Shown here: in pieces, positions 5,721 through 31,510 of the stretch
How the letters are laid out: each line of letters starts with the position of its first letter
Position numbering within the stretch: position 1 is the stretch's first letter
Source of the DNA: Deltaproteobacteria bacterium
Lineage (GTDB): Bacteria > Bdellovibrionota_B > Oligoflexia > Oligoflexales > Bog-1112
Reading direction: 5' to 3'
Length of the DNA: 34,694 bases
Assembly (NCBI GenBank): GCA_016186945.1
Contig: JACPKR010000062.1
Location: 1 to 34,694, forward strand
The notes under the pieces: model-generated
Databases searched by the model: none
What the model saw: the letters and a program-made list of their open reading frames with translations, nothing else
Told to the model about the DNA's origin: nothing
Program-made: the position numbers and the translations under genes

Positions 5721-5821
5721 GTATTCACGATAATCAATTTTGGGAAAAACTTTTTGAAAAAAGTTATTTCCCCAAGCCCCTTTTCAAAAACTTTAATATC
5801 TAAAGTTTTTTGGGGGAAGGC
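5721..5821 (+). repeat. Family B element, partial copy B1 (left two thirds)
   Basis: Starts GTATTCACGATAATCAATTT after CTATA and matches positions 1 to about 101 of the 159-bp family B core, then diverges before the hisS ribosome-binding site. The internal hairpin pairs AAAAACTTTA with TAAAGTTTTT around ATATC. In copy B3 the same position is a C-G pair (CTTCA/TGAAG), so the two copies differ by a paired change. It lies between the divergent aldehyde dehydrogenase and hisS. Confidence 0.85.
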
Positions 5822-5845
5822 ACTTTTAAGGGGGGCTTTGTGAAT

Positions 5846-7174
5846 ATGAAGGAACGTGTGACACCGCGTCGTCTAAAAGGCTTTCAGGATTATGGGCCGG
5901 ACGTCATGGCAAAACGGCTCGCCATTTTAGCGGCGGCGCGCAAAGTGGCTCACCGAGCTAATTTCGTCGAAATCGCGACTCCTGCTCTTGAATATGCAGA
6001 AGTCCTCCTCGGCGTGGGGGGGGAGACTGACAAACAAGTCTTTCGTTTCCTTGATGGCGGGGAAAGAGATGTAGCCATGCGCTACGATTTGACTGTCCCC
6101 TTTGCTCGTTACACGGCCGAGAATTTTGGCACCCTGATTTTTCCTTTCAAGCGCCTACAGATCGGTGACGTCTGGAGAGCTGAAAAACCACAGAAGGGAC
6201 GCTTTAGGGAATTCATGCAGTGCGACCTCGATATCATCGGGACTAACGCAGTGGCCGCAGATCTCGAGATTGTCGCCTGTTTTTACGACATACTCTCTCA
6301 AATTGTGCCGTCCTCATTTACTATCGCCTGCAATGACCGTCAGATCCTATCGACACTCATCAAAAAAATTTTTGAACTTCGGGAACAGTCTGAAGAAGAG
6401 CAGGCACTCATCATCTTAGACAAACTTGGAAAGCAGGGGGCCAATTCGGTCCTGTCTCTTCTCAGAGAACAGCTTAAAGTTGATGAAACAAAGGGACAGA
6501 AGCTCCTTGCACTCATGAGCACTTCCGATGAAGGTACAAGGGAAACCGCGATCGCCCCTTATTTTGAAAGTCCCGAGGAAAAAGCCATTTGGAAACGTTT
6601 CCAGGAGACTCTGCAAATCCTCAGGGAACTTTGTACGCTTGACAAAGGTAAGATCGTCTTCGATCTGAGCATAGCTCGTGGGCTGGCATACTACACAGGG
6701 TTAGTGTTTGAAACTACGGTCGACGGTGTGGAGGGATTCGGCTCAATCTGCGGTGGTGGACGTTACGACAACCTGGCAGGCCGCTTTACTCAACAAATTC
6801 TTCCTGGCATCGGCGCTTCATTGGGGGTGGACCGGCTGGCAGCCCTTCTCATGGAGAAAGAGGGAGCAAAAGAAAGCTGGGAAGGAGAGGTCTTCATCGC
6901 AGTGGCGACGGAGGACGCTCTTTCTTATGCGTTTCAAATTGCGGCAGAGCTGCGGAGAAAAGGTTTTGTAGTGGAAACAACACTCAAGCAGCAGAAATTA
7001 AGCCAGCAATTTAAATTCGCCAACCGCAAAGCTTTCCCCGTCGTCCTTACTGTCGGAGAGGAGGAAAAGCATTCCCGTACCGTCTCCCTTCGGGATATGA
7101 GAGCGGGGGAGGAGCAAAAAGGCATCAACTTGGAGTCTCTCGTTCCCCAACTTCAAACCATTCTGAAGAGGTAA
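5846..7174 (+). CDS. hisS: Histidine--tRNA ligase
   Basis: Class II aminoacyl-tRNA synthetase that charges tRNA-His. The 442-residue protein has motif 2 ([19 protein letters not shown]), the histidine-specific segments [11 protein letters not shown] and [12 protein letters not shown], and motif 3 ([10 protein letters not shown]). The anticodon-binding domain occupies about residues 350-440. The start is ambiguous: ATG 5846 (chosen; [15 protein letters not shown]) or GTG 5840. An AAGGGGGG site lies 4 nt before the GTG and 10 nt before the ATG. Partial repeat B1 ends about 25 bp upstream, so any promoter lies in or before that repeat. hutU follows after 4 bp, so the two are probably cotranscribed. 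Confidence 0.96.
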
Positions 7175-7178
7175 ACCG

Positions 7179-8828
7179 ATGGGAAAACGTCTGATCCGTG
7201 CCCCCCGAGGAGGAGAAAGAACCTGCAAAGGTTGGGTTCAGGAAGCTGCTCTCCGCATGTTGATGAATAACCTCGACCCGGAACTTGCTGAAAACCCTGA
7301 CGAGCTAGTGGTCTACGGTGGAACGGGAAAAGCAGCTCGCAACTGGGACTGCTTTGACAAAATCGTCGAGTGTTTGCAACGTTTGGAAAACGATGAAAGC
7401 CTCCTGGTCCAGTCGGGGAAACCTGTTGCTATCTTCAAAACCCATGAAGGCGCTCCCCGTGTTCTCATTGCTAACTCGAACCTCGTCGGTCATTGGGCAA
7501 ACTGGGAACACTTTTGGGAACTGGAGAAAAAAGGCCTTATCATGTTCGGCCAAATGACAGCAGGCTCCTGGATTTACATTGGCACGCAAGGGATTTTGCA
7601 GGGGACTTTCGAAACGTTCGTCGCCTGTGGGGAGAAGTACTTTCACGGTGATCTTTCCGGCAAATGGATTTTCTCAGGAGGCCTCGGGGGAATGGGTGGC
7701 GCGCAACCCCTTGCTGCCACTATTGCAGGAGCAGTTTTTCTGGGTGTCGACGTCGACGAAGCAAAAATCAAACGACGTCGCGAGGGACGTTACCTCGACA
7801 CAATCGCCAGGAACCTGGAAGAAGCTTTGACACTCGTACATGATGCCCTGGCAAACAAAAAGGCGCTAAGCATTGGCCTCGTTGGAAATGCGTCGGAAAT
7901 CCTTCCAGAACTTTTGAAACGAAACACCATCCCCGATATCGTCACCGACCAGACCAGTGCTCACGATGAACTGAACGGATACGTTCCAGGAGGGATGAGT
8001 TTCGGCGACGCACTGAAACTTCGCAAAGCAGATCCCGAAACTTATAAAAGGAAAGCTCTCGCTTCAATCGTCGCACACGTCCAGGCTATGATTGCCTGCA
8101 AGGAGCAGGGTGCGATCGTCTTCGACTACGGTAACAACATCCGTGCGCAGGCGAAGAAAGGCGGTCTTGCCGACCCTTTCCAGTTTCTAGGCTTTGTCCC
8201 CGAGTTCATCCGACCCCTTTTCTGCGAAGGCAAGGGGCCTTTCCGCTGGGTCGCACTCTCGGGCGACCCGCAAGATATTGCTGTCATCGACAAAGCTATG
8301 ATTGAAGCTTTCCCACTAGACAAGAAACTCCACCGTTGGTTGAGTGCAGCAAGAGAGAAGGTCAAGTTCCAGGGTCTGCCGTCCCGCATCTGCTGGTTGG
8401 GGTACGGAGACAGGAAAAAAGCAGGGCTTCTCTTCAATCGCCTTGTAAGGGAAGGCCAAGTCAAGGCTCCGATCGTCATCGGGCGGGATCACCTCGACTG
8501 CGGTTCCGTTGCCTCACCGTACCGAGAGACCGAAGGGATGAAAGACGGTAGCGATGCAATCGCCGATTGGCCCATACTGAATGCTTTGATAAATGCTGCG
8601 AACGGTGCAAGCTGGGTGAGCTTCCACCATGGGGGAGGCGTAGGCATCGGCTACTCCCTGCATGCCGGGATGGTTATAGTCGCTGATGGGACCCAGGATG
8701 CTGAGGAAAAACTGACTCGCGTTTTGACGACAGACCCGGGAATGGGTGTCGTCCGGCATGTGGACGCAGGTTACGAAGAAGCCCTCGTCGTCGCGAAGGA
8801 GAAGGGAATCGACATCCCTTTTCTGTAG
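7179..8828 (+). CDS. hutU: Urocanate hydratase
   Basis: Second step of histidine degradation: urocanate plus water to imidazolone propionate, using tightly bound NAD+ as electrophile. The 549 residues match the family length. Signatures include [13 protein letters not shown] near residue 47, [13 protein letters not shown], the glycine-rich [13 protein letters not shown], and the conserved [20 protein letters not shown] containing the active-site-region cysteine. The start ATG has AGAGG upstream and lies 4 bp after the hisS stop. No hutH, hutI or hutG is in the window, so the rest of the pathway must be elsewhere. Pairing it with hisS puts histidine use in translation and histidine breakdown in one transcript. 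Confidence 0.97.
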
Positions 8829-9046
8829 TGCTGAGATCGGAGCCGGAGGTGCTGAAATAGTTGCCAGTTGCGCAACGACCGCTTGTGCAGCATCCCCAGT
8901 TGGGGCCTCTGCCATGCTTGCTGGTGCTGGGTTGGCAGCCCAGGGCACTCGTACGACCTTCTCCTTGCGACTCAAGTAACAGTTTGATAAGAAAATTTTT
9001 TCACTCATAATAATGATGAGAAGATGGACGACCTTAAAAAAAAGGA
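8829..9046. other. Intergenic region between hutU and hepT
   Basis: 218 bp without a convincing full gene. From 8829 to 8979 one plus frame encodes an Ala/Gly-rich peptide and the minus strand an Ala/Pro-rich one. This may be a low-complexity remnant, but I cannot tie it to a family. A nine-codon ORF (9024-9050, MDDLKKKE) ends with TGA overlapping the hepT ATG and could couple translation, because hepT itself has only AAGG one base before its start. Confidence 0.35.
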
Positions 9047-9460
9047 ATGAGTTTGGAAACCCATATAGATTATCTGAAAAAAGCTCTCGAATATTTCGAA
9101 TACTCATTCGAGAAGGTTAAAACGCTACCTAAGCATGTAAAAGATTTAGACCACGAGTCGCTTGAAACCTGGAAGAGTTTTGCAGCGCGATTCGCGCGAG
9201 CGTCTGATCTCTTCCTAGGCAAGTATCTTCGAGGCAAGATACTTGAAAGTGACCCTGGGTTTCGAGGAAGTTTCCGTGACATGCTCAACCAAGGCGCCAA
9301 ATTAGGTTTTATAGAAGATGAAACCACGTGGCTGAAAATTAGAGAATTACGTAATACCGTGGCTCATGAGTATAACAACCAAGCATTTGACGACTACATT
9401 TCTTTCCTTCTTAAATACGCTCCTCATATTATTTCTATTAAGGAGCTTATCAAACGATGA
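9047..9460 (+). CDS. hepT: HepT-like HEPN ribonuclease toxin
   Basis: Toxin half of a HEPN/MNT toxin-antitoxin module, of the HI0074-type substrate-binding family. The 137-residue helical protein contains the catalytic RX4HXY motif intact: R102-NTVA-H107-E-Y109. In characterised HepT proteins R and H form the RNase site and the Tyr is the residue AMPylated by MntA. The ATG overlaps the TGA of a possible leader ORF, and its own ribosome-binding site is poorly spaced. mntA follows with a 4-bp ATGA overlap, the usual toxin-first order for this system. Toxicity is inferred from the family and motif. Confidence 0.88.
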   Translation: MSLETHIDYLKKALEYFEYSFEKVKTLPKHVKDLDHESLETWKSFAARFARASDLFLGKYLRGKILESDPGFRGSFRDMLNQGAKLGFIEDETTWLKIRELRNTVAHEYNNQAFDDYISFLLKYAPHIISIKELIKR

Positions 9461-9768
9461 GACTTAGCCAAGGGGAAATTGAAGGAATTATTAAAGCCTT
9501 TTCCAGTTTTGCAATGAAAGGGTGCTCACTTTATCTTTACGGAAGTCGTACAGACGAATCCCTGGGAGGGGGGGACATCGACCTTCACTTCGAAGTTCCT
9601 CATCACAAACTCTTCCACGCGAAAGATCAGTATCTCGATTTTCTTGTTGAGATGAAGGAGAACATCGGTGATCAAAAAATCGATCTTTTGATCAGTTCTC
9701 CTGAGATCGATGATGATGATTTTCTCAACCAGATAAGGCAAAAGCAGATTCTTATCAAAAGTTGGTAG
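9457..9768 (+). CDS. mntA: MntA-like minimal nucleotidyltransferase antitoxin
   Basis: Antitoxin half of the HepT/MntA pair. The 103-residue polymerase-beta-like nucleotidyltransferase has the motif G29-S30-x9-D40-x-D42 and a third acidic residue D76 in KIDLLI, so its metal site is complete. Known MntA enzymes transfer AMP groups from ATP onto the HepT tyrosine and so silence the RNase. It overlaps hepT by 4 bp (ATGA), implying coupled translation. It converges on map with only 44 bp between them and no obvious terminator hairpin. Confidence 0.88.
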   Translation: MRLSQGEIEGIIKAFSSFAMKGCSLYLYGSRTDESLGGGDIDLHFEVPHHKLFHAKDQYLDFLVEMKENIGDQKIDLLISSPEIDDDDFLNQIRQKQILIKSW

Positions 9769-9812
9769 CCGCAAGGTTGTGCCAGCCGGGGACTTATCCC
9801 TGAGAAACGAGA

Positions 9813-10565
9813 TCAAGGTAAAGTCAGGATATCCACACGGCCATCGTGCCGAATGGCGACTGTGTGTTCGAATTGTGCTGACAGCTTCCCGTCGATGGTG
9901 ACAGCTGTCCACCCGTCCTCGAGGATTTCACAACGCCAATCCCCTGCATTGATCATTGGTTCAATGGTAAACACCAAGCCGCGGGTTAACCTCAACCCTT
10001 TTCCCGCTGTTCCGTAGTGAGGAATCTGCGGGTCTTCATGGAATTCACGGCCTATGCCATGTCCGACAAACTCCCTCACAACCTGAAATCCCTGACCTTC
10101 TGCGTGGCGTTGAATGGCTGCACCAACGTCCCCCAAGCGGCATCCATCATGTACAGCCGCCAGCCCTAAATCAAGGCAGCGACGGGCACATTCCACCAAG
10201 CGCTTTGCAGAGGGGGACACGTTCCCCACGAGAAAGGTACGTGAAGAATCCCCATGAAACCCATCTACGATAGGCGTAACGTCAACATTAATGATGTCTC
10301 CATCCTTGAGAACGTCCTTCCTGCTGGGAATCCCATGGCACACCACCTCATTGACAGAAGTGCAGATCGACTTGGGAAACCCCTTATAGTGAAGAGGCGC
10401 AGAAATCGCTCCTCGCTTGCGCGTCATCTCTTCGACGAACACGTCGATGTCCTCTGTGCTAATGCCTGGTGCAATCATTTTCTCGACAGCCTCCATTAGC
10501 TCCCAAGCCAAAAGACCCGCTCGCTTCATCGCGTCGATTTCTTCTTCAGATTTAATAATAATCAA
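9813..10565 (-). CDS. map: Methionine aminopeptidase, type I
   Basis: Removes the initiator methionine from nascent proteins. The 250-residue protein has the five metal ligands of the pita-bread fold: Asp in INVDVTP, Asp in GDSSRTF, His in GHGIGREFHEDP, Glu in FTIEPMI and Glu in QFEHTVA. Translation starts at TTG 10565, giving the family-typical MIIIKSEEEID N-terminus. A strong AGGAGC lies about 6 nt upstream and no ATG gives a plausible start. The TTG overlaps the TGA of the solute-binding-protein gene (TTGA), so the genes are translationally coupled. It lacks the N-terminal zinc-finger or SH3-binding extension of some MetAPs. Confidence 0.96.
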   Translation of the reverse strand: MIIIKSEEEIDAMKRAGLLAWELMEAVEKMIAPGISTEDIDVFVEEMTRKRGAISAPLHYKGFPKSICTSVNEVVCHGIPSRKDVLKDGDIINVDVTPIVDGFHGDSSRTFLVGNVSPSAKRLVECARRCLDLGLAAVHDGCRLGDVGAAIQRHAEGQGFQVVREFVGHGIGREFHEDPQIPHYGTAGKGLRLTRGLVFTIEPMINAGDWRCEILEDGWTAVTIDGKLSAQFEHTVAIRHDGRVDILTLP

Positions 10566-12163
10566 ATCGTGCTCCTAAGTTGGGCGAGAAGTGCCAGAAA
10601 CCAGTCGGGATCCTTTTCTCGAATATCTGCGTTCCTCTTAATCATGCCTGGGAGTTCAAGGCAAGCCTTGTGATGAATAAGTACCGTCACAAGTTCCCGT
10701 TCCCCCAGCAAGTGGCTGATTTTCCGAAGCAGCGCAAAGTCCGGATGTGTCCGGGTGAGCGACGTTCGATAGTCCCTTAAAAGGCTGTCAAGCTGTCCTT
10801 GCTGAGGAGCGGCATCATTACCACCTATTATGCTCAGACCTTGGCTATGGAAGCGATCGAAAAGATCCATCTCGGGCCAGGGGAAAAAAACCCCTGTCAT
10901 CAAACCATCATATCCACCATCATTCATGGGAATTAGGCTTGCCGCTATACCCCTGGCCTTCAAACCGTCGAGGAGTACCTTTTCCACCAAGCCCATCTCG
11001 CCCCGTACCGAGCTAAATTTGAGAGCCTGATCCGGTTTCCAAGAGCCTGCCGGCCTCTTCTTGCGTCGGACGGCAGAGTAACCAGGGTGGCCCTCAGGAA
11101 TCAGAGAGCTAGAGGTGGTACCCCAATTACCGGCACCGCTCAGCAACAAAGTATCCCTCGGAAACGAGTCCGCAATCTCATTCCTAACATGAGGGTTCTG
11201 AAGCATCGGCTTTTTAAGATTCCAGATGACGACGCTCGCCATGGGTAACTTGATCAGCGCGGAACACTGACCCTCGTTGTGCGGATTCCGTTCTTCGGGC
11301 CTTGCTGACAATACATCAGCCATCGAAAATCGAAGGGCCTCTTTCACCTTGTGTGTCTGAGCTTGCTCGCTGTTCTGAAAAAGAAAGGAAGCCCGGGGGA
11401 TCCCATATTTTTCGTTGGGATTTAAACCAATTCCCCGTTCTGTAATGACGGGAACGTAACGACCCACGCATTCGAAGCCAAACTGTCCCTGTCTTTCCGT
11501 TCCCCGCACCCGCCATAGTGGGACACCATTCAAGACAAACGGGCCGAAGGGAGGAGCCTTGCCCCACACAACTTGAATGCTCTCCCCGTCCCTGCTTAGA
11601 TGAACAGGCCGTTCAGTCCAAAGTCCAGAGCCTTTTTCATTTATGATGTTGGGGAGTTCTTTCTTGAGAAATTCAAGAATTTGGACGGGAGTCACCTCCT
11701 CACCATTCCACCAAAAAATCCCCGACCGTAAAGTCAGATTCCAGACGTGCTGTTGTTCCTTCTTGACCTCATCGACGCTCTTGAAAATGAGAGGCTCAGA
11801 AGCTTCTCGCTCCAAATCCAGACGGGTCAAAGGAGGACAGATCATCCTACCCAGCACCGGATCATTACCCAGCCACAACACAGGTTGGGAAAAACCAAGG
11901 TGCGGTATCGGCCAATCAACAATTCCCACCTCATTGTCTGAGGCTGCAGAAGCAGACCCGGCAAGAATAAAAAGGAAGATTATATAGTATTTGGGAAAAA
12001 GAATTTTCGGAGAGGACCTTTTTTGAAAAAAAGTTCCCCTCCACACCTCCCCCCAAAAAACTTTAGATACTGAAGTTTTTGAAAAGGGGGTTGGGGAAAT
12101 AACTTTTTTCAAAAAGTTTGTCCCCAAATTGATTATCTTGAACACTATAGAATACAAAGGCAT
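10562..12163 (-). CDS. Family 5 extracellular solute-binding protein, 5' end rebuilt by repeat B2
   Basis: Periplasmic binding protein of the oligopeptide/dipeptide ABC-importer type. Recognisable segments are VWNLTLRSGIFWWNGEEVTP and VVIWNLKKPMLQNPHVRNEIADSFPRD, matching family 5 hallmarks. A hydrophobic core IIFLFILAGSASA with a likely cut after ASA begins only about 60 codons after the ATG at 12163. The 53 codons before it are family B repeat, read in its open frame. Either the protein starts at ATG 12163 (1 nt after the kinase stop) with a repeat-encoded leader, or at an internal GTG such as 12046. The latter would give a basic n-region (WRGTFFQKRSSPK) ahead of the hydrophobic core. No permease or ATPase gene is nearby, so this is an orphan binding protein. 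Confidence 0.8.
   Translation of the reverse strand: MPLYSIVFKIINLGTNFLKKVISPTPFSKTSVSKVFWGEVWRGTFFQKRSSPKILFPKYYIIFLFILAGSASAASDNEVGIVDWPIPHLGFSQPVLWLGNDPVLGRMICPPLTRLDLEREASEPLIFKSVDEVKKEQQHVWNLTLRSGIFWWNGEEVTPVQILEFLKKELPNIINEKGSGLWTERPVHLSRDGESIQVVWGKAPPFGPFVLNGVPLWRVRGTERQGQFGFECVGRYVPVITERGIGLNPNEKYGIPRASFLFQNSEQAQTHKVKEALRFSMADVLSARPEERNPHNEGQCSALIKLPMASVVIWNLKKPMLQNPHVRNEIADSFPRDTLLLSGAGNWGTTSSSLIPEGHPGYSAVRRKKRPAGSWKPDQALKFSSVRGEMGLVEKVLLDGLKARGIAASLIPMNDGGYDGLMTGVFFPWPEMDLFDRFHSQGLSIIGGNDAAPQQGQLDSLLRDYRTSLTRTHPDFALLRKISHLLGERELVTVLIHHKACLELPGMIKRNADIREKDPDWFLALLAQLRSTI
11987..12145 (-). repeat. Family B element, full copy B2 (159 bp), inside the solute-binding-protein 5' region
   Basis: Read on the minus strand the core runs from GTGTTCAAGATAATC to CCCAAATAC, flanked by CTATA before and TATATA after. 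It is exactly 159 bp and open in the frame that continues into the signal peptide of the solute-binding protein. Internal structure: a hairpin AACTTTTT/AAAAAGTT closed by GGGGA/TCCCC, then AAAAACTTCA/TAAAGTTTTT with one mismatch, then a third imperfect hairpin. Together with B3 it flanks the GHMP kinase in inverted orientation. Confidence 0.92.
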
Positions 12164-12164
12164 G

Positions 12165-13199
12165 CTAGACGCCCACCATTTTGCAGATTTGAAACCCTTC
12201 TCGTGCAACGTTCGCATCCAGCACCCGACCTCCACCGTTTGTCAAAGTTTCTGCAAGTTTCTGGCGTCTGTCAGGTGAAGTCAGGAAAAGCATCGCTCCC
12301 CCGCCCCCCGCACCGCAAACACGGCTGAGCCGAGCACCAGCCGAACATGCAAGCTCCTGGAGTTTCCTCGTCACCCTAGTTTCAATCCCAGGCCAGAGCT
12401 GTTTCCGAAGTTCCCACTCCCGCAAAGAGTGAGCAAGGAAAGCATCCCCATCCCCCGACAACACGGACTCTGCCGCAGCCTGCGCTTCTTCTCCCATTGA
12501 GGAAAGACGTCCTATCGTCTCTTGATCTCCTTCAAACGCCCGCTTGTAAATTTCCCAATTGTTAACCGCCGACACGCGCGACTGCCCACTGTAACAGACC
12601 AAGAGCTGCTCGGCGATCCCGTCTAAAATTTGGCCTCGCAAGGTTGTGACCTCTGGCCCCTTCAAAGGATAGCGAATCACATTAAGCCCCCCCCGCTGCG
12701 CACCCCAATGATCCTGCACACCCGTGGGTGTTTTCAAAAGCTTGGCTTCAACATTGCCCGCCAGACGTACCAGAACGTCCTCCGGTAGGCGAGCTTCCCC
12801 GATCACTCGCACACGCAACTCATTGAGTGCCCCTACCAGCGTGACCGCGAGAGTTGAACTTCCTCCTAGGCCCGCACCAGCAGGAGAGAGCGCATTGGTT
12901 TTAATGGTGAGGGGCGGCCAGTCCTCGCGCCACAATGCAGAAAGTACCAAGCCCGGCAGTGCCAAATCCTTATTGGCACAAACATACTGAAACGTACCGC
13001 AGGCTATTTTGTTTTGATCAGTGCTTTCCAAATGATACTCTTTAGTCTCAGAAGATCGGATGGAAACACTTGCAAATAGATCGATGCCGATGTTGATAGT
13101 TGCCGTCGCATCCAGAATGTAATGCAACGGCCATAAATCCAGAGTTCCTCCCGCAAGGTCAACTCGGGTAGGCGCACGCGCTACGATAGAAAACATCAT
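12165..13199 (-). CDS. GHMP-family sugar kinase (heptose/fucose-kinase-like)
   Basis: Cytoplasmic small-molecule kinase of 344 residues. Motif 1 is RAPTRVDLAGGTLD (8-21), which resembles HddA-type heptose-7-phosphate and galactokinase-like kinases. The phosphate-binding motif is SPAGAGLGGSSTLA (105-118), and motif 3 is VCGAGGGGAMLF near the C-terminus. The start is ATG 13199 or the adjacent ATG 13196; GGGAG upstream is better spaced for the second. The stop TAG is followed after one base by the ATG of the next gene. Family B copies lie on both sides in inverted orientation. The substrate is uncertain; a sugar phosphate is likely, and no lipopolysaccharide genes are adjacent to support heptose. 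Confidence 0.85.
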   Translation of the reverse strand: MMFSIVARAPTRVDLAGGTLDLWPLHYILDATATINIGIDLFASVSIRSSETKEYHLESTDQNKIACGTFQYVCANKDLALPGLVLSALWREDWPPLTIKTNALSPAGAGLGGSSTLAVTLVGALNELRVRVIGEARLPEDVLVRLAGNVEAKLLKTPTGVQDHWGAQRGGLNVIRYPLKGPEVTTLRGQILDGIAEQLLVCYSGQSRVSAVNNWEIYKRAFEGDQETIGRLSSMGEEAQAAAESVLSGDGDAFLAHSLREWELRKQLWPGIETRVTRKLQELACSAGARLSRVCGAGGGGAMLFLTSPDRRQKLAETLTNGGGRVLDANVAREGFQICKMVGV

Positions 13200-13221: not shown

Positions 13222-13380
13222 GTGTTCAAGATAATCAATTTGGGGACAAACTTTTTGAAAAAAGTTATTTCCCCAACCCCCTTTTCAAAAACTTCAGTAT
13301 TTGAAGTTTTTTGGGGGGAGGCGTGGAGGGGAACTTTTTTTCAAAAAAGGTCCTCTGCACAAATTCTTTTTCCCAAATAC
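13222..13380 (+). repeat. Family B element, full copy B3 (159 bp)
   Basis: Core GTGTTCAAGATAATC to CCCAAATAC, exactly 159 bp, flanked by TATATA on the left and TATAG on the right. The middle hairpin pairs AAAAACTTCA with TGAAGTTTTT perfectly around GTATT. It fills the divergent gap between the GHMP kinase (ATG at 13199) and the unknown gene at 13395, so any promoter for either must lie in or overlap the repeat. The 53-codon frame is open throughout and continues beyond it. Confidence 0.93.
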
Positions 13381-13394: not shown

Positions 13395-13907
13395 ATGGCA
13401 AAACGTTTGTCTTCACAGAAACGACGGGTCTGTTACGTTAACCCTGACCCAAAAACTTTAGATGCAGATCTTGCTTTTTTTGAAAAACGGCTCAAACTGC
13501 TTGGTCAACTCGAACTCGCCACGGTTCCTTCCATCGAAAGCCCGAATTTTCTCCCCTGCGATCTTCTCGTATTAAATGCTTCGCATATTCCCACGGAAGC
13601 ATTTCCCAAGTGGCTTCTGGGCCTATCTCATAAAATCTTAAGGCAAAAAAACATCCCTGTACCAGCTCTAATATTCGCGCCCCTGGATTTTTCGCGGCTC
13701 AACGAGATGGCGGAGGCTGCCTACCAGATGAACTGGTACTTCGACATCATCCACCCCCAACACATGGAGTCACTGCCCATTCGTGTCGCCAACCTCCTCC
13801 GCATCCATGATCATCTCCACGAATTGCAGCGTTACGAAGACGAAGTAAAAACACTCCAAAAAAAGGTGGAAGATATCGAGCACCGCCTCCAAGGGCTGAA
13901 GCCATGA
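13395..13907 (+). CDS. Unknown cytoplasmic protein with C-terminal coiled coil
   Basis: A 170-residue protein I cannot assign with confidence. Residues about 10-130 alternate hydrophobic strands and helices (CDLLVLNASHIP, PVPALIFAPLDF, YFDIIHP) in a way reminiscent of a response-regulator receiver fold. There is no clear phospho-acceptor Asp set. Residues 137-168 (HDHLHELQRYEDEVKTLQKK and beyond) form a heptad-rich coiled coil, suggesting an oligomer or partner-binding tail. The ATG at 13395 follows a GAAAG site and lies 9 bp after repeat B3. It overlaps the next gene by 4 bp (ATGA), so they form an operon. Confidence 0.7.
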   Translation: MAKRLSSQKRRVCYVNPDPKTLDADLAFFEKRLKLLGQLELATVPSIESPNFLPCDLLVLNASHIPTEAFPKWLLGLSHKILRQKNIPVPALIFAPLDFSRLNEMAEAAYQMNWYFDIIHPQHMESLPIRVANLLRIHDHLHELQRYEDEVKTLQKKVEDIEHRLQGLKP

Positions 13908-16059: not shown

Positions 16060-16061
16060 GC

Positions 16062-16580: not shown

Positions 16581-16724
16581 GTAATGCGTAAGCCACTTGG
16601 GGCAAATAGGGAGAGGGGGGTTTGGGGGGGCGAGTGAAGCGTCGCCTCCCCCGGATTTCATGGAGGAACCAGCTGCGCAGTTTCCTCCAAACCACCTCCT
16701 TGCCCCAAGTGGCTTACGCATTAC
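16581..16724 (-). repeat. Family A element, full copy A2 (144 bp, 25-bp arms)
   Basis: An inverted copy of A1. Perfect arms lie at 16581-16605 and 16700-16724 (GTAATGCGTAAGCC... and its complement). They enclose the G/C hairpin and the signature hairpin with loop ACTGCGCAGCTGG on the minus strand (16669-16681). It sits between divergent rplS and mqnC, ending 14 bp before the mqnC ATG. Its plus-strand frame is open from about 16622 and runs without a stop into mqnC. Confidence 0.9.
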
Positions 16725-16738
16725 AGAGAGGAGCACGC

Positions 16739-17869
16739 ATGTTACAAAGTATAGAACAGAAGATCGGGCAAACAACACCCATTAGCCGTGAGGAAGCACG
16801 CTGGCTTTATACTGAGTCGGAACTCCCCACCCTTTCTCGACTGTCCACCGCGGTCCGGAACCGCTACCACAGCCCCCACGAAGCCACTTACCTCATCATG
16901 GCAATCATCAACTACACAAATATCTGCGTCGCTGGATGTGATTACTGCGCTTTCTACCGTTTCCCCCACGAAGAGGGGGCCTATCTAAAGAGTTTCGACG
17001 AAGTCGTGGAGCGGGTGGAACGCCTTGTCAGCTTTGGTGGCACGCTCGTAGGTTTCAACGGTGGCTTCCATCCGAAGCTCAGCCTCCCTTACTATGCTGA
17101 GTTTTTTCGCATGATCCACAAGCGTTTTCCTGAACTTGGGTTCAAAGACATGACGGTCGCGGAATTTATGTTCGCATGCAAACTGTCGAAACTTTCCTAC
17201 GACGAAGGTGCGAAAGTATTGAAAGATGCTGGAACACGGTGGATCCCCGGCGGAGGAGCGGAAGTTCTGGACGAAGATTTTCGCAAAAGGCACAGCCCTG
17301 GGAAATATAAGGTCTCCGATTTTTTCTCCGCACAGAAAGCGATCTTGGAAGCAGGACTTGGTTCAACAGCAACCATGGTGATCGGCTTTGATGAAAGCCT
17401 GGAGGAGCGACTGTCTCACCTCGAAACTTTGCGCAAGTTTCAAGACGACACGGGGAGGAAACTTCCGAGCTTCCTTTGTTGGACTTACAAACCTTACAAC
17501 ACAAAGTTGGGGGGGAAGGAAATTTCAACCGAGGAATACCTCCGCTGGCTCGCTGTCAGCCGTATCTTCCTTCATAACTTTAAACACATCCGCACATCAG
17601 TGCTCACCAGAAACGAAGATGCGCTCCTGGGCTTGAAATACGGAGCCGACGACTTCGACCTCCCCTTGGAAGACGAGGTGACGGAAAAGGCTGGCGCCCA
17701 TATTTCCGAAGACTTCGATTCCCTCCTTGCCAGCGCAAGAAAACTAGGTTTCCATGTAAAGAAAAGAAAACCTTTCGAACCAACATATGGTATTTGGGAA
17801 AAAGAATTTGTGGAGAGTACCTTTTTTGAAAAAAAGTTCCCCTCCACGCCTCCCCCAAAAAAACTTTAA
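16739..17869 (+). CDS. mqnC: MqnC-like dehypoxanthine futalosine cyclase (radical SAM)
   Basis: Radical SAM enzyme of the futalosine menaquinone pathway, cyclising dehypoxanthine futalosine. The [4Fe-4S]-binding motif is C-VAG-C-DY-C (CxxxCxxC) in YTNICVAGCDYCAFYR. Further family segments are WIPGGGAEVLDEDFRKRHSPGK, TATMVIGFDES, LCWTYKPYNTKLGG and YGADDFD. The substitution of GFKDMTVAEF for the usual His/Ser-Pro loop marks a divergent member. ATG 16739 was chosen for GAGAGGAG upstream, although the frame is open back through repeat A2. The final 26 residues, from GIWEKEF, are encoded by family B copy B4, which also supplies the stop codon. The family C-terminus appears to end just before this. 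Confidence 0.88.
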   Translation: MLQSIEQKIGQTTPISREEARWLYTESELPTLSRLSTAVRNRYHSPHEATYLIMAIINYTNICVAGCDYCAFYRFPHEEGAYLKSFDEVVERVERLVSFGGTLVGFNGGFHPKLSLPYYAEFFRMIHKRFPELGFKDMTVAEFMFACKLSKLSYDEGAKVLKDAGTRWIPGGGAEVLDEDFRKRHSPGKYKVSDFFSAQKAILEAGLGSTATMVIGFDESLEERLSHLETLRKFQDDTGRKLPSFLCWTYKPYNTKLGGKEISTEEYLRWLAVSRIFLHNFKHIRTSVLTRNEDALLGLKYGADDFDLPLEDEVTEKAGAHISEDFDSLLASARKLGFHVKKRKPFEPTYGIWEKEFVESTFFEKKFPSTPPPKKL

Positions 17870-17948
17870 ATAGTGAAGTTTTTGAAAAGGGGGTTGGGGA
17901 AATAACTTTTTTCAAAAAGTTTGTCCCCAAATTAAATATCTTGAACCC
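17790..17948 (-). repeat. Family B element, full copy B4 (159 bp), forming the mqnC 3' end
   Basis: On the minus strand it runs from GGGTTCAAGATATTTAATTT to CCCAAATAC, exactly 159 bp, flanked by CTATA on one side and CATATG on the other. The first 80 bases on the plus strand are translated as the end of mqnC. The rest fills the gap before the methylmalonyl-CoA mutase ATG (17966). Its sense frame is open, as in the other copies. Confidence 0.92.
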
Positions 17949-21830: not shown

Positions 21831-21894
21831 TGCCTTGGGGCAATGCCTTGGGGCAAGGAGGTGGTTTGGAGGAAACTGCGCAGCTGGTTCCTCC
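21831..21894 (+). repeat. Family A fragment A4 at the 3' end of the cation transporter
   Basis: A direct tandem duplication of TGCCTTGGGGCAA (21831-21843 and 21844-21856) replaces the long arm. The signature hairpin follows: TTGGAGGAA, loop ACTGCGCAGCTGG (21875-21887), TTCCTCC. It ends 5 bp from the stop codon of the cation diffusion facilitator gene. The second arm and G/C hairpin are missing. Confidence 0.82.
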
Positions 21895-21899
21895 ATGAC

Positions 21900-25086: not shown

Positions 25087-25117
25087 GATCAACGCGCTCT
25101 AAGCGAAGGAAATGAAT

Positions 25118-27397
25118 TCACCTGGCGCTGGACAGCAAGGGACTTTGGGAGCTTCTTAGGACAGGGCTGCCGGTGTGAAGATAGGAAAGGGTTTCCTCGT
25201 AAACAAGAACAGTATCGTACCAAAACGCCTTGCCATCAGGGCTAGCTACTTTGACAGCATAGGTTCCTGCGGGAACATTAAGAAACAAGTGGGAAGAATG
25301 TGAGCCTTCCCAAGCGACTTTTTCACCTGCTTTTTGCCCTTTGTGATCGAGCAGGGTGACTTTCACTCCGTCGAAATCTTCCTCACCCGCTAGAGGGCCA
25401 TGCTCAACTAGCACCGAACCTTCCCAACGATTGACGGCAAGTCCTGCGAAAAACGCAATATCATCCAAAAAACCACGAGGAAACAACGGCGTCACGTGAT
25501 TATCGCCTGTTCTGCTGTCCATTCTATAGAGCGTAGCTTCAAATTCAGAAGCCCGAGTCAAATAGAAGGATCGGTCGTTGTAAGTTTCCTCCGAGCTGTA
25601 GAGAACGCCCCTGTCCGCATCTTCTTCCCAGGGGTACCCTCGTTCACCTAGCGCATAAACGTCCACATAGGCAAGGGGCCGGTAGTGAGACTCACCCACA
25701 GCACCCCCGTTCCATTGCTCATAGGCGGTGGGCACCGCTGCAAGGGATGTTTCCAGATATCGCTTCTCGCCCAACGCAAAGGAATATTCGGAATGATACC
25801 CTTCGAAGAGGTTCAAGGGGACAGGACCCCGTTCTTCACCGTCCTTGTTTACGAAGAAGAAAGCGAGGGGGCCTGGTTCCAAATTGAACATACAGAATCG
25901 GCCGCTCTTACTCGTTTTGTCTTGCAGGCGGTCAAGGTAGCCATACTGGTTGAAATAGAAGGGTGTTGCTCCCTTCACATTGGCCTCGACCTTCACATCC
26001 TGTTGAGGTTTTCCGTCCTGACTTACAACGTTTGCACAAACCGAGCTATCAGATTCCCGGTTCTCACTGCCTGCTAATTGAAGGTAAGTGTCGAAGGCGA
26101 AGTTTCGGAGGAGCGTGATCTTCACCTTGTCGGGAATGGGGTCGCTCAGTTCAAAAACAGTGGGCCTGAACCTTTCGAGAGGATCTTTGATTTCTACAAG
26201 AAAGCTAGATCCTTGCAGAAGCTCCACCCCCCTCACTACCCCCATGGCATCGGATTCGCTCTCTATTTCAGTGCCCAAGAAGCGAACTTGCACACCATTA
26301 GCGGGAAAGAGTGCTCCGTTTTCTTCGTCCGAACGTTCATCGACGATTTGGAGGTCGATCACGTGTTTGGCATAAGGCGAAGGAGTAGTGATGAAGGTCG
26401 CTTTTTCGGGAGCATGCTCAGGTGCTTCCTCAATCTGTTCTGTTTCTTCTTGGTTCGGGTGAGATTTTTTTCCGAGGCTCGCAAGTTGTTGCAGGGTCTC
26501 CAAGTTTAAGTTCTGCGGATAACTCGCACTGCGAATCTCTCTAACACTGTCAAGGACGGTAAGTTCCCTGGGAAGAACGACATTATTTTCTTCTCCACCA
26601 ACCGTCACGGGCAAAATGTAGAGGGAGTTTTTGTAATGCAGGTAAAGTTCGGTTGCCCCTTCTTTTCGACCGATGATTTGCTTTTCATTGTCTCGCCATT
26701 CAACGAGGTCTTGGTTACGAACGAAGATGTTCAGCTCGCTTCTTGTCCCGTCTTCCTCGGAAATGTTGACTTCAATCGCATCTCCCGTGTGGGGGATGCT
26801 TAACTCTGAGGGGAATATGATAATTTCTTTATTCTTAAGAACCACGTTAACAACAGGTTTCACGCTTTCCTGAATTTCTGACAGCGGGGTTAGCGGTTCT
26901 TCCGGTGTAAAAATTTCAGCACGGTTGGGGGCCTGCTGCGCTTGGGGAGCTTTCCGCTCAGGAACGACAGAAATTGTGATATCCGACACTTGCTGCGGGG
27001 GCGCCTCTCGTTTCCTCGCAGGCTCGTCACTTTCTAAAAGCATAGACAGAGGCGAAGACGCCCGTTCTGCCAGGAGGATGGGATCTTTTTTCAAGTCGTC
27101 AGCCTTGTGAACCAGGGTGGCTACCGTCATTGGCTTGTTCAAAAGCTGGCTGATGTCTTGAAATCTTGCAACTTCGATGTAGTCTTCGAGGGAGCTAGGC
27201 GGCGCTGTTTCCACGAGAGACTCATCTGAATCAACTGCCATGGTTAACAAGGTTTCTACAGTGAGTGCACTGCCGACGATCCTGCTTATGGGAACTTCGC
27301 GGGAATAGGGAAACGCAAGGCTGGCGACATTAAGAATGAGCAGACCCAGTACGTTTCGAATCAGTTTGTTGCGACTTTGCTCATTGTCCCTGAGCAT
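25118..27397 (-). CDS. Large exported multi-domain protein, function unknown
   Basis: A 759-residue protein. The N-terminus (NKLIRNVLGLLILNVASLAF) is a signal peptide or anchor. It is followed by a low-complexity Pro/Glu-rich linker (about 65-185) with APPQQ and EEPLTPL stretches. Residues about 190-270 form a beta-rich segment ending IGRKEGATELYLHYKNSLYILPVTV, which resembles BIG2-like or secretin pilus-N domains. A second acidic linker follows (about 300-345). Several beta-sandwich segments come next (SVCANVVSQDGKPQQDVKVEAN; TVLLDHKG-type repeats ending FLNVPAGTYAVKVASPDGK) that look like carboxypeptidase-regulatory/CNA-B domains. GGAAGG precedes the ATG. No catalytic motif is seen. Cell-surface or periplasmic placement is inferred. 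Confidence 0.8.
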   Translation of the reverse strand: MLRDNEQSRNKLIRNVLGLLILNVASLAFPYSREVPISRIVGSALTVETLLTMAVDSDESLVETAPPSSLEDYIEVARFQDISQLLNKPMTVATLVHKADDLKKDPILLAERASSPLSMLLESDEPARKREAPPQQVSDITISVVPERKAPQAQQAPNRAEIFTPEEPLTPLSEIQESVKPVVNVVLKNKEIIIFPSELSIPHTGDAIEVNISEEDGTRSELNIFVRNQDLVEWRDNEKQIIGRKEGATELYLHYKNSLYILPVTVGGEENNVVLPRELTVLDSVREIRSASYPQNLNLETLQQLASLGKKSHPNQEETEQIEEAPEHAPEKATFITTPSPYAKHVIDLQIVDERSDEENGALFPANGVQVRFLGTEIESESDAMGVVRGVELLQGSSFLVEIKDPLERFRPTVFELSDPIPDKVKITLLRNFAFDTYLQLAGSENRESDSSVCANVVSQDGKPQQDVKVEANVKGATPFYFNQYGYLDRLQDKTSKSGRFCMFNLEPGPLAFFFVNKDGEERGPVPLNLFEGYHSEYSFALGEKRYLETSLAAVPTAYEQWNGGAVGESHYRPLAYVDVYALGERGYPWEEDADRGVLYSSEETYNDRSFYLTRASEFEATLYRMDSRTGDNHVTPLFPRGFLDDIAFFAGLAVNRWEGSVLVEHGPLAGEEDFDGVKVTLLDHKGQKAGEKVAWEGSHSSHLFLNVPAGTYAVKVASPDGKAFWYDTVLVYEETLSYLHTGSPVLRSSQSPLLSSAR

Positions 27398-27708
27398 TCT
27401 ACCTTCCCTGTCAATGTAGAATGGGCGTTCTCCCGTTCATCCACTCGTCGGTTGCTTTATAGACAGACTTAAAAATTATCAGCGCTACGCGTGTTTTTTT
27501 TTCTTTTGAAGAAGAGTGAACGCACGGATGTGTTGGGGTTTTTACTCGACTTTTTCTTCTTTAGCAAGCGTCGCTTCCACCGGATTTCTTGGAGGAACCA
27601 GCTGCGCAGTTTCCTCCAAACCTCCTCCTTGCTGAGGGGGCGCAGTTTCCTCCAAACCTCCTCCTTGCTGAGGGGGCGCAGTTTCCTCCAAACCACCTCC
27701 TTGCCGGG
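27398..27708. other. 311-bp gap between the large exported protein gene and the pyruvate kinase homologue
   Basis: The right half is the family A derivative A5. The left part (27398-27565) carries the upstream region of the exported-protein gene and two T-rich runs (about 27493-27505 and 27550-27562) but no convincing gene. A basic minus-strand frame across 27469-27696 is created by the tandem repeat. Confidence 0.5.
27566..27706 (-). repeat. Family A derivative A5 with a tandem 36-bp amplification
   Basis: Begins like copy A2 (AGCGTCGC then CCGGATTTC) and keeps the signature hairpin (GGAGGAA 27591-27597, loop complement CCAGCTGCGCAGT 27598-27610, TTCCTCCAA 27611-27619). Two exact 36-bp units starting CGCAGTTTCC and ending GAGGGGG lie at 27605-27640 and 27641-27676, with a third partial unit to about 27705. 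It ends 3 bp from the stop of the pyruvate kinase homologue. The outer arms are lost. Confidence 0.85.
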
Positions 27709-29124
27709 TTAGCCTAGCTGTTGGATGGTGAACAAGTTGCTTGCTTCGTAGGCAATGGAGGAGAGCGAAACGGTGACAAAAACAATTGAGTCCCCAGCTT
27801 TGAGCCAGTCGTTTTTTAGAAGCCTCTCGCTGACGATGGGCAGAACTTCGTCAAGGTTGGGGCTTGTGTCGAGAAGGAGTGAGGTCACCCCTCTTACGAG
27901 GGAAAGTCGTCTGTGGGTTCTTTGCGAGAACGTTACCGCAATGATGGGAATGGGAACCTGAAAACTTGCCAGGCGTACGGCTGTGTTACCATGCTTTGTG
28001 ATGCAGACGATCGCTTTTGCTTTCACTCGCTGGGCTGTTTTGTATGCGTGAAAAGCGACGGCATCGAACTCATTCGTAGCTACAAAGTCTTTTTGATACC
28101 AGTTTATGTGAATATTTTCCTGGTCCTCAATATCGCGAATGATGTGTTTACACAGACTGAGGGAGCGTTCCGCGTAAGGTCCCAGGGATAAGTCTTCCGC
28201 AAGAACCACGGCATCGGTCCCGTCGATCACGGCGTTTGCCACGTCCGAGACTTCGGCACGTGTCGGGGTGGCGTTGTAACGCATGGAACCAAGCATATCG
28301 CTTGCGATCATGACCATCTTGGCTTTTTCATGACAAGCATGGATCATTTCCTTTGAAGCAATCGGCACGAGAGCAGGGTCCAGAGAAAGGGCCAGTTCCC
28401 TGCGGGAAATCATGATCCCATCCACATGGGGCAGGAGGGCCTGGATGTTGCTGTAAGCCTGACTATTATCTACGCGTAAGATCAGCCAGGGAGCGACTTT
28501 TAGCTCCAGTTCGATCTTTTTACGGATGAGGGCAATTTCCCTCGGGTTGGAAATACCCGGAAGAATGACATAATCAATTTCTGTATCTTTGAACAAGTTG
28601 ACGTTAATTTTACTTAAATCAAAAAGGGTCGGGTTTTTTCTCGTCTCTTCGACATAGACATCCATCCCTTCCTTAATCGTCCCTCCTTGGACCACTTTCG
28701 CTTTGAAACTTTTTGCTTTCACCTCAAGGATTTTCAAAACGAGGTCTCCGAAACCGATGTAAACCGTCGCATCCGGTGTAAATGTCTTCTCCCACTTTTG
28801 ACAGGTGACACGGATGTCCGCTTTTTTAGCATCCGCTGACCCTATTTTGACGATCGAATCGTAAACAAATTCCGCATGTTCGCCGACCGCACTAACGGTG
28901 ATACGGTCCACCTCGCTAAAGTCGACAAGGATGGCAGGAGGCTTCGTGTCATTGTGTAACTTTTGTGTGGCGTTTTGTAAAAACTCAGCAATTTTCTCTG
29001 AACCTTCCTCAGAGTAAATCAAACGCAAGGCATCGAATTCTGCGTTTTTCAGACTGACACCACCTTTCAAGTCGGTGAATGGTGCCTCCATCGACCAAAC
29101 GACTTTGGTTTGAAGTTTGTTCAT
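27709..29124 (-). CDS. pyk: Pyruvate kinase homologue with a degenerate active site
   Basis: A 471-residue protein with the pyruvate kinase domain order. The A domain is interrupted by a short B domain (about 110-165: FTPDATVYIGFGDLVLKILE... GMDVYVEE), followed by a C-terminal domain. The strongest match is TRAEVSDVANAVIDGTDAVVLAEDLSLG (about 288-315). The catalytic elements are altered. The N-terminal RxNxSHG is replaced by RLIYSEEGS. The catalytic Lys and metal-binding Glu of KIEN read R217-V-D219-N. ARGDLG reads S240-R-R-E-L. Phosphoenolpyruvate turnover is therefore unlikely and a regulatory or other role more plausible. It overlaps psd by 4 bp, so it is cotranscribed with phospholipid synthesis. 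Confidence 0.85.
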   Translation of the reverse strand: MNKLQTKVVWSMEAPFTDLKGGVSLKNAEFDALRLIYSEEGSEKIAEFLQNATQKLHNDTKPPAILVDFSEVDRITVSAVGEHAEFVYDSIVKIGSADAKKADIRVTCQKWEKTFTPDATVYIGFGDLVLKILEVKAKSFKAKVVQGGTIKEGMDVYVEETRKNPTLFDLSKINVNLFKDTEIDYVILPGISNPREIALIRKKIELELKVAPWLILRVDNSQAYSNIQALLPHVDGIMISRRELALSLDPALVPIASKEMIHACHEKAKMVMIASDMLGSMRYNATPTRAEVSDVANAVIDGTDAVVLAEDLSLGPYAERSLSLCKHIIRDIEDQENIHINWYQKDFVATNEFDAVAFHAYKTAQRVKAKAIVCITKHGNTAVRLASFQVPIPIIAVTFSQRTHRRLSLVRGVTSLLLDTSPNLDEVLPIVSERLLKNDWLKAGDSIVFVTVSLSSIAYEASNLFTIQQLG

Positions 29125-29987
29125 GATGCCTTTTCCACTGGTGCTATTAATTTTTCTCCCATTTTTATGGGCAGTCCTTGGGAGATTCTTTTGAAAGGAA
29201 ATCGTTTGGAAAGGATATCGTCAAAAACGATAATAACCGAAGATCCCAGCATAAACATGCCCAGCTCTTCGCCAATTTCCATATTACGCGGATGGGCGAA
29301 TGGGAAGTTCTTTGGGCCGCGGTTACTGAATTGACGAGAAAGATTATTTGTTTCAAAAAAATTCACCGCGTTGACTTTCATTCTACCCACATTGAGTGCT
29401 CCGACCATCACCAGATACGCTTTGCCTCCGTCTTTCTGAGTCAGCTCAAAGACGACACGCTCATTCCGGCAAAACAGACGCGGGACGACTTTAACAAAAG
29501 TATCGTTCACGGGCCATAACTCTCCCGGCACATAACGAACGGAATGGAGAAACCCACTGAAAGGTGCATGGACGCGGTGGTAATGATGAGGAGCAAGGTA
29601 AAAGGAACAAAGCCAGGACGGTCGAAACGTTTTGTCGACGGGACCGCCTGCGAAAAGCAATTCGTTTACCGGATAGTAGAGTCCTTTCGCCTGTATCCCT
29701 TGCCCGCGGTCTATAGGCTGAGAATAGCGCAAGATGCTATCGCAAGGTGAACATAGGTCACCCTGAATCGGACGCGCACCTTCCTTCAGGGCTCTGGTAA
29801 AAAGGTCCTCGAACGACGGGTAGTCGTCCAAACGTTTCGCCGCCTCCGACATGTCAATCTTAAGAAGCTTTACAAGAGCAGCATTCATAACGCGCGTGAA
29901 CGCCCGTGGCCAAGCAAGACGGCTTGCTTTTCCTAAGACGTAGCTTTCCAAGTTCTTGGGTAATAATGAAAGAAGGGGATAGCGCAC
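29121..29987 (-). CDS. psd: Phosphatidylserine decarboxylase proenzyme
   Basis: Inner-membrane enzyme that makes phosphatidylethanolamine from phosphatidylserine. The 288-residue proenzyme has FEDLFTRALKEGARPI, the HHYHRVHAPFSG motif and the self-cleavage site LGSS near residue 249 (usually LGST). This would yield an alpha chain of about 40 residues with a pyruvoyl group from Ser249. The start is GTG 29987 with AAAGGAG about 7 nt upstream. Its TGA overlaps the ATG of the pyruvate kinase homologue. A complete family B copy (B5) begins 18 bp upstream, between it and the divergent small gene. No phosphatidylserine synthase is nearby. Confidence 0.93.
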   Translation of the reverse strand: MRYPLLSLLPKNLESYVLGKASRLAWPRAFTRVMNAALVKLLKIDMSEAAKRLDDYPSFEDLFTRALKEGARPIQGDLCSPCDSILRYSQPIDRGQGIQAKGLYYPVNELLFAGGPVDKTFRPSWLCSFYLAPHHYHRVHAPFSGFLHSVRYVPGELWPVNDTFVKVVPRLFCRNERVVFELTQKDGGKAYLVMVGALNVGRMKVNAVNFFETNNLSRQFSNRGPKNFPFAHPRNMEIGEELGMFMLGSSVIIVFDDILSKRFPFKRISQGLPIKMGEKLIAPVEKAS

Positions 29988-30005
29988 GGTCGGCTCCTTT
30001 GTATT

Positions 30006-30164
30006 GTGTTCAAGATAATCAATTTGGGGACAAACTTTTTGAAAAAAGTTATTTCCCCAAGCCCCTTTTCAAAAACTTCAGTATTTAAAGTTTTTTGGGG
30101 GGAGGCGTGGAGGGGAACTTTTTTTCAAAAAAGGTACTCTCCACAAATTCTTTTTCCCAAATAC
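30006..30164 (+). repeat. Family B element, full copy B5 (159 bp)
   Basis: Core GTGTTCAAGATAATC to CCCAAATAC, exactly 159 bp, flanked by GTATT on the left and TATAG on the right. It retains the hairpins and the 53-codon open frame. It lies upstream of psd (GTG at 29987), in the divergent region shared with the 70-residue unknown gene. Confidence 0.93.
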
Positions 30165-30414
30165 TATAGTAAAAATGCAACATCGCTTTTTTCTTAGTGT
30201 GCCAATTATGCAACAAATATGTCCGCTGAAACTTTCGATAGCGGAACTTTCACAATATAGTAAAACCTTATAAGGGATTCTTCCTTTTTTTAAAGATAGT
30301 TAAGGATCCGCCGGACAAATTGTCGCCACGGTTGAATTGGCACAATTATTGTATAGTAATTTGCATCCATCAAAAGCTTGGAAAAGCTTAAGGAGACATA
30401 CGAAAGGTTTTTTA
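30165..30414. other. A/T-rich upstream region of the 70-residue gene with small inverted repeats
   Basis: No gene is evident. Small dyads stand out: TCCGCT/AGCGGA (30222-30245), the palindrome CCTTATAAGG (30266-30275), and AATTGT/ACAATT around 30319-30349. These could be operators or parts of a promoter region. TATAGT at 30352-30357 is a possible -10, but no well-spaced -35 was found. Confidence 0.3.
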
Positions 30415-30627
30415 ATGAAACGAGTTGTAGAAGAAAAAATCTCCGCAGACTTAAAAGCAAACAAAGCGATCTCTCAACAGACGGTAAAAATACTAGCCAA
30501 CTCAATTTATACCGCCCTCCGAGAAGAAGGGTGCCAGGACAAAGACATCATCGGCGTCTCCAGCCAATTGATCGGGCTGGTTACTTCCGCCATTGATGAG
30601 CGAGAAGAAGAACCTTCCTCCTTCTAA
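30415..30627 (+). CDS. Small unknown protein (70 residues)
   Basis: A helical 70-residue protein (MKRVVEEKISADLKANK at the start, DEREEEPSSF at the end). AAAGG lies about 6 nt before the ATG, a good site, so I chose it over an in-frame ATG at 30337 with none. The stretch TVKILANSIYTALREEGC and DIIGVSSQLIGLVTSAI suggests two amphipathic helices. No motif or family recognised. It is preceded by a 250-bp dyad-rich region and converges with tpiA, the stops being one base apart. Confidence 0.65.
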   Translation: MKRVVEEKISADLKANKAISQQTVKILANSIYTALREEGCQDKDIIGVSSQLIGLVTSAIDEREEEPSSF

Positions 30628-30628
30628 G

Positions 30629-31387
30629 TCAGCTGAGCACGGCATCGAGCATTTGGGAGAAGAGGGAAGCGTCAAGAGACGCGCCCCCTATTAACCCTCC
30701 GTCAATATCTGGCTGCGCGACAAGTTCCCTTACATTGGATAGATTCATGCTGCCTCCGTAAAGGATAAGGAGTGAATCCGCAGCGTCTCCAAATTTTTGC
30801 TTTGCCTTGTCACGGATGAACCTGTGAACTTCCTGAGCCTGGGCCGAGGATGCCGACACGCCCGTACCGATAGCCCAGACCGGTTCGTAGGCGATCACGA
30901 GTTTGGTCAGATCAGCCAGCCCGCTGAACACGGCATCGAGTTGGCGCTGGACGACGGAGAACGTTTGGCCGCTCTTTCTTTCCTCCAGGGTCTCCCCCAC
31001 GCAGAGGAGGGCGCGCATGTCGTGGTGAATGCAGGTCTGTACCTTCTTCGCCACAACCTCATCGTATTCACCGAATTGCTGACGACGTTCGCTATGCCCG
31101 AGGATCACTTCAGTGACCCCGAGTTCCTTTAGCATCCCGATAGAAACTTCCCCGGTGAAGGCCCCTCTCTCTTGCCAATGAGCATTCTGTGCCCCGAGTC
31201 TGATGCGAGTCCCTCGGATCAATTCCCTCGCTCTGAAAAGGAAGGGGTAAGGCATGGCAAGGACTGTTTCTAGTAGACGGTCCCCACTCTGTACATTTCT
31301 ATTCTTCTTTAGAGTGTCGATATATCCCTCAAGGTCGGCGAGGGACATGTTCATCTTCCAGTTGGCAGCCATCATCAATTTGCGCAT
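30629..31387 (-). CDS. tpiA: Triosephosphate isomerase
   Basis: Glycolytic enzyme interconverting dihydroxyacetone phosphate and glyceraldehyde 3-phosphate. The 252 residues match the family. Catalytic signatures are AANWKMN (Lys near residue 13), LGHSERR (electrophile His) and AYEPVWAIGTG (base Glu), with the phosphate loop LYGGSMN. The ATG at 31387 has AAAGGG about 8 nt upstream. The longer frame back to 31480 is only family B repeat. It follows pgk on the same strand, separated by truncated repeat B6, so any operon transcript crosses the repeat hairpins. Confidence 0.97.
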   Translation of the reverse strand: MRKLMMAANWKMNMSLADLEGYIDTLKKNRNVQSGDRLLETVLAMPYPFLFRARELIRGTRIRLGAQNAHWQERGAFTGEVSIGMLKELGVTEVILGHSERRQQFGEYDEVVAKKVQTCIHHDMRALLCVGETLEERKSGQTFSVVQRQLDAVFSGLADLTKLVIAYEPVWAIGTGVSASSAQAQEVHRFIRDKAKQKFGDAADSLLILYGGSMNLSNVRELVAQPDIDGGLIGGASLDASLFSQMLDAVLS

Positions 31388-31410
31388 GAAACAACCCTTT
31401 ATTAAATAAG

Positions 31411-31510
31411 GTATTTGGGAAAAAGAATTTGTGGAGAGAACCTTTTTTGAAAAAAAGTTCCCCTCCACGCCTCCCCCCAAAAAAACTTTAGATATTGAAG
31501 TTTTTGAAAA
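31411..31510 (-). repeat. Family B element, truncated copy B6 between pgk and tpiA
   Basis: Contains core positions about 60-159 (ending CCCAAATAC on the minus strand) and lacks the GTGTTCAAG end. Its left part is the 3' end of pgk: the last six codons (FKNFNI) and the TAA at 31488-31490 come from the repeat. It retains the AAAAACTTCA/TAAAGTTTTT hairpin and the G/A-rich third hairpin. Confidence 0.87.

Follow-up and report, generated by a model that had tools for sequence, protein, structure and literature searches.

The window analysed here is the 34,694-nt contig C60 of a 2.66-Mb genome (76 contigs, 91% complete), and it carries four full and two partial copies of a short repeat. In 4/4 full copies the same frame is open over 53 codons. 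This raises the question of whether the repeat is a mobile element whose length and frame were selected to permit insertion inside proteins, as in the Rickettsia palindromic elements (RPE) with which the original prediction compared it, or whether the open frame has another origin.

Copies in the window and structure of the element

The four full cores, each exactly 159 bp, and the two partial copies lie where they had been predicted, and the full copies are 93-97% alike. Their positions and neighbours are as follows.

5721-5821, plus strand: right-truncated copy, directly upstream of hisS
11987-12145, minus strand: full copy, 159 bp, with TATA at either side; neighbours are an unknown gene (10562-11830, minus) and a heptose-kinase-like gene (12165-13199, minus)
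13222-13380, plus strand: full copy, 159 bp; in the gap that separates the heptose-kinase-like gene from the divergent gene at 13395-13907
17790-17948, minus strand: full copy, 159 bp; mqnC-like gene on one side, methylmalonyl-CoA mutase on the other
30006-30164, plus strand: full copy, 159 bp; flanked by phosphatidylserine decarboxylase and a secG-like gene
31411-31510, minus strand: left-truncated copy in the gap between PGK and TIM

The predicted ends GTRTT/AATAC within TATA were seen in the window copies, and the conserved ends of the element read TATAGTRTT...AATACTATA. The two arms are alike over ~60 bp, which makes the entire element imperfectly palindromic; whole-element antisense matches were found among the copies. 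Past TATA the flanks are unrelated, except that C tends to precede it and G to follow it. As predicted, the consensus forms three hairpins, closed by a CTATAG/CTATAG stem. The RNA minimum free energy is -59.4 kcal/mol; dinucleotide-shuffled sequences give -35.0 +/- 4.0 (z = -6.2). In the copy at 13222 the hairpins, placed by the fold, are:

13243-13273, plus strand: hairpin 1, element positions 22-52 (fold and covariation table)
13278-13318, plus strand: hairpin 2, element positions 57-97, which is the exchangeable AT-rich interior
13323-13360, plus strand: hairpin 3, element positions 102-139 (fold and covariation table)

The lack of a transposase in the window agrees with a scan of its 15 larger ORFs, and no tRNA was found in the window. 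The methylmalonyl-CoA mutase encoded there has its best matches at 65% identity, in organisms of mixed phyla. As in MITEs, the terminal inverted repeats (TATAGTRTT/AATACTATA) carry a terminal TA, and most two-ended copies are 83-234 bp long, numerous and devoid of a transposase gene of their own.

The genomic family and its mobility

The copy counts are based on 0.80 Mb of sequence chosen around copies and on genome-wide pattern searches. Without a single match in the controls, the pattern searches located 133 left ends, 154 right ends and 167 right-hairpin sites, and from these we estimate that the family has ~150-170 copies genome-wide, about 1% of the 2.66-Mb MAG. A profile search identified 149 copies within the 0.80 Mb of stretches read. 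The density is about one copy per 15 kb, the mean divergence among copies is 3.8%, and the 40 scored genome matches at E <= 2e-69 are far above chance.

The prediction of a mobile element is well supported by the copy number, the sharp ends, the unrelated flanks and four sites that lack the element in G001, the only same-genus genome compared (DNA identity of about 65-75% where pieces align). For three of the intact copies in the window, and for one truncated copy, the syntenic gap in G001 is shorter and has no element. Those of copies 11987-12145 and 30006-30164 have no element, and the gap of copy 13222-13380 is 196 bp in the window vs. 52 bp in G001. As read from the sequence against G001, the copy at 31411-31510 took the place of the last codons and stop codon of PGK, whose C-terminus is GKTLPGLKALTI in G001 and GKILPGLKVLFFKNFNI in the window. 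The sites in G001 are empty but too diverged for the junctions, and with them the target duplication, to be read. In a virtual excision at gene ends, removal with TA and with TATA each gave stops about as the flanking base predicts. A joined-flank search detected no empty site inside the 0.80 Mb of stretches read, and one copy adjoining a Family A repeat was rejected as a clean nested insertion into it.

No relative of the element was found in 55 other genomes; the only match, in G003, was rejected as a 27-bp coincidence inside unrelated sequence. Pattern scans of genome and viral contig sets, and blastn searches of phages and plasmids, likewise found none. A second repeat family lies in the window at 1750-1892, 16585-16727, 21847-21898 and 27566-27704, with the core TGGAGGAAACTGCGCAG.TGGTTCCTCC and ~103 core sites in 0.80 Mb. 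Stretches of 37-50 bp of this second family, at ~83-95% identity, occur at many places in G005 and G007, which belong to other genera of the same family as the host; the second repeat crosses genera, whereas the 159-bp element does not.

A transposase with matching terminal repeats, for which a search had been suggested, did not turn up in the genome. Searches for DDE_3, Y1_Tnp, DDE_Tnp_1, rve and ISAzo13 (the last without a positive control) gave no transposase with matching ends, and no IS630-type (DDE_3) gene was found in the genome. A cognate autonomous element with the family ends was also not found; this absence is weak evidence in an assembly of 91% completeness that breaks at IS genes. 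Transposase fragments (DDE_Tnp_1, Y1_Tnp) are located at the contig ends L229, L230 and L195 of G000. This suggests that IS elements are probably missing from the assembly, and the driver may be missing as well.

We consider it likely that the repeat is a young, non-autonomous, TA-ended MITE-like family of one bacterial lineage, moved in trans most probably by a cut-and-paste transposase. Such an enzyme would have recognised the TATAGTRTT...AATACTATA ends and inserted the element at TA-rich sites (CTATA/TATAG flanks), presumably duplicating TA or TATA. That copies stay intergenic or at gene 3' ends would be due to selection against the disruption of genes and not to a coding role; in practice, some genes take a new stop codon or a short C-terminal tail from them.

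Variants, hairpins and contact with genes

Counting and aligning the genomic copies confirmed many copies with common ends but not a single fixed length. Among 65 intact copies, having both ends and the AT-rich interior, the length ranges over 141-190 bp: 159 bp in 44, 158 bp in 7, 189 bp in 5, 160 bp in 2, and 141, 153, 161, 162, 163, 166 and 190 bp in one each. The identical length seen in the window is thus not general. In the six variants of 189-190 bp the loop of hairpin 3 is longer by ~30 bp, a stretch that on inspection is a GTCATCCCGCGG-type palindrome. In another 21 two-ended copies hairpin 2 is replaced by another interior or is absent. A ~90-bp double palindrome (GTCATCCCGCGGCTTGACCGCGGGATCC...) lies between the usual ends in 16 copies, inverted in some and with tandem repeats in some, and 5 copies of ~83 bp are without any interior. 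The fixed ends therefore carry an AT-rich hairpin block, a GTCATCCCGCGG palindrome block or nothing. The end variants are linked, GGGGACAA occurring with CCCAAAT 27 times and TTGGGAAAA with CTCAAAT 12 times, and each interior type is present on both end lineages. This indicates that the interiors were exchanged or repeatedly gained, with the ends moving together.

Tandem repeats of 20-45 bp were observed inside GTCATCCCGCGG interiors at L170 2084-2380, L167 near 10442 and L154 near 1675, with TTTTACGAGTCTGTCATCCCGC as an example of the repeated unit; they look as if they were caused by replication slippage at hairpins. The GTCATCCCGCGG block as an independent mobile repeat was rejected, as 57 of 65 sites are in or adjoining family copies; the block was absent from 95 other genomes and from plasmids.

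About 45 copies are truncated at one end. A hand count of printed copies gave 32 truncations on the left vs. 12 on the right (P = 0.004), plus 7 internal deletions. The left-end bias and the exchange of interiors do not follow from simple cut-and-paste, and one-sided truncation and interior exchange are the unusual points of this family. They could be explained by a modular mobile palindrome, in which fixed arms swap hairpin cassettes between end lineages and truncate one-sidedly through hairpin- or single-strand-mediated copying in place of cut-and-paste, an explanation that we regard as unlikely.

The positions of the copies were compared with genes called by a gene finder written for the purpose (88% coding), whose calls are approximate so that exact counts may shift. 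Intergenic copies number 136 of 149, compared to ~12% non-coding DNA; 12 overlap a gene end, 1 bridges two tandem genes in frame, and none of the 149 was seen to split a conserved protein domain. Gene starts are mostly avoided to ~10 bp and 3' ends are not. Where copies and genes meet, it is usually at the 3' end of the gene, which often receives a stop codon or a short tail from the element: of the 59 3' ends of genes that face an intact copy, 23 have the stop codon within that copy, often as the TAG of TATAG. One such tail, seen in the translation, is in the window:

17786-17869, plus strand: tail of the mqnC-like gene, 28 codons including the stop, reading into the right end of copy 17790-17948

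The mqnC-like protein is thereby predicted to have the element-encoded C-terminal tail IWEKEFVESTFFEKKF, and the copy also gives the stop codon. Element-encoded tails in more than one frame were observed in genes of different families at L044 6694-8169, L046 16717-18216, L137 1763-2590, L166 1898-3148 (dnaJ) and L167 574-2244 (AMP-ligase-like). At the 5' end of guaA (L189 8083-9771) the reading frame continues through a 141-bp copy, and between the element and the conserved N-terminus no ATG, GTG or TTG start of its own is apparent; the copy may supply the start codon of guaA. At L045 2905-5556 a left-truncated copy fuses two tandem genes into an 884-codon open frame via the open frame of the element.

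The hairpins are very stable, and many copies lie immediately after stop codons. The copies might thus be retained as terminators or RNase III/E processing sites, their hairpins acting on the transcripts of the neighbouring genes. Similarly, polymorphisms common to several copies avoid the stems (P = 1e-5), as private ones do weakly, and one orientation prevails by 23:7 among the truncated copies that separate tandem genes. However, full copies are spread over convergent, divergent and tandem gaps roughly in proportion to gap frequencies, no Rfam family matched the window at the gathering threshold, and the positions are not kept in G001. The conservation of the stems may equally reflect a need of transposition. 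A role at the RNA level is therefore improbable in our judgement.

The hairpin-rich structure and one-sided truncations would also fit a single-strand mobile palindrome (Y1 transposase, IS200/IS605 or REP/RAYT-like), with near-end hairpins recognised, a TATA target and no duplication. The genome has 4 Y1_Tnp matches, one of which (L193) has a copy nearby, but at about one copy per 15 kb a chance neighbour is expected. Three of the four Y1 loci have no copy within the DNA fetched, one locus being cut at a contig end. Moreover, the element has symmetrical terminal inverted repeats with TATA on both sides, which is atypical of the Y1 route, and we find this route quite improbable.

The open frame and comparison with known systems

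The frame is open in 40 of the 44 copies of 159 bp, and a stop is present in 13 of the 65 two-ended AT-rich copies. The 50 private substitutions in the open frame comprise 11 synonymous, 37 non-synonymous and 2 stop changes, whereas 11.9 synonymous and 2.5 stop changes are expected from the same mutation spectrum; the other five frames look alike. The comparison of synonymous with non-synonymous differences, which had been proposed as a check, thus showed neither a synonymous excess nor a stop deficit, indicating that the frame is not selected. The founder had one open frame, and in so young a family most copies still keep it. The 53-codon frame is an inherited, neutral by-product. That the family is an RPE-like element, with length and open frame selected to permit insertion inside proteins, is very improbable and largely refuted by the chance-level substitutions, despite the 40 open copies, several lengths that are multiples of three (141, 153, 162, 189 bp) and the in-frame dnaJ tail, guaA 5' end and bridge between two tandem genes: seven 158-bp copies and several others shift the frame, other frames are equally frequent in gene tails, and the copies are mainly intergenic with none inside a conserved domain.

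The present work adds a well-populated MITE-like family for an uncultured lineage, and a direct test in it shows that ancestry alone can account for an open frame common to every copy of a small palindromic element. It also offers a clear case of several interiors on one set of ends, and of mobile DNA repeatedly giving genes stop codons and C-terminal tails. A recognised class of TA-ended, hairpin-rich MITEs, ~100-200 bp long and with open frames and C-terminal fusions, takes in Correia/NEMIS, ERIC/RU-1, YPAL/RU-2, RUP and RPE (PMC2229807, PMC2759123, PMC10969869).

RPE, palindromic and 105-146 bp long, have an open frame (PMC2229807), and many protein genes contain them as in-frame insertions (PMC2229807, PMC10969869). 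The present element is also a palindrome with an open frame, but none of its 149 copies was found inside a conserved domain and its frame is not selected. RUP of Streptococcus pneumoniae is 107 bp long, with ~108 intergenic copies and a TA target; its candidate driver is of the IS630 type and has matching ends (PMC2229807), whereas no DDE_3 gene was found here. ERIC/IRU/RU-1 and YPAL/RU-2 are intergenic palindromes of 127 and 168 bp, whose frames are fused mainly to protein C-termini (PMC2759123), and ERIC ends carry TA (PMC2229807). The element resembles them in being palindromic and intergenic with open frames, and ERIC in its TA ends, but no sequence relationship was seen, and the frame of the element, which was tested, is without selection.

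The Correia/NEMIS/CREE repeats of Neisseria share with the element a TATAGT start, ~100-200 copies, intergenic location, long stem-loops and short, internally altered variants. CREE are 69-151 bp long (PMC5039591), and Correia/NEMIS species of 107 and 155 bp are known (PMC2229807). The 26-bp Correia repeat is TATAGTGGATTAA... (PMC5039591); by inspection only TATAGT is common to it and the element consensus, and the interiors are unrelated. QMITE1 and QMITE2 of Coxiella burnetii are inserted at the 3' ends of genes, to which they contribute stop codons and short C-terminal tails (PMC5896051), as the present element does, but their direct repeats are variable, 2-3 or 7-11 nt (PMC5896051), whereas both flanks of the element are TATA. 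The family is thus new, while its class is already known, and it works like Correia/NEMIS, ERIC/RU-1, RUP and QMITE.
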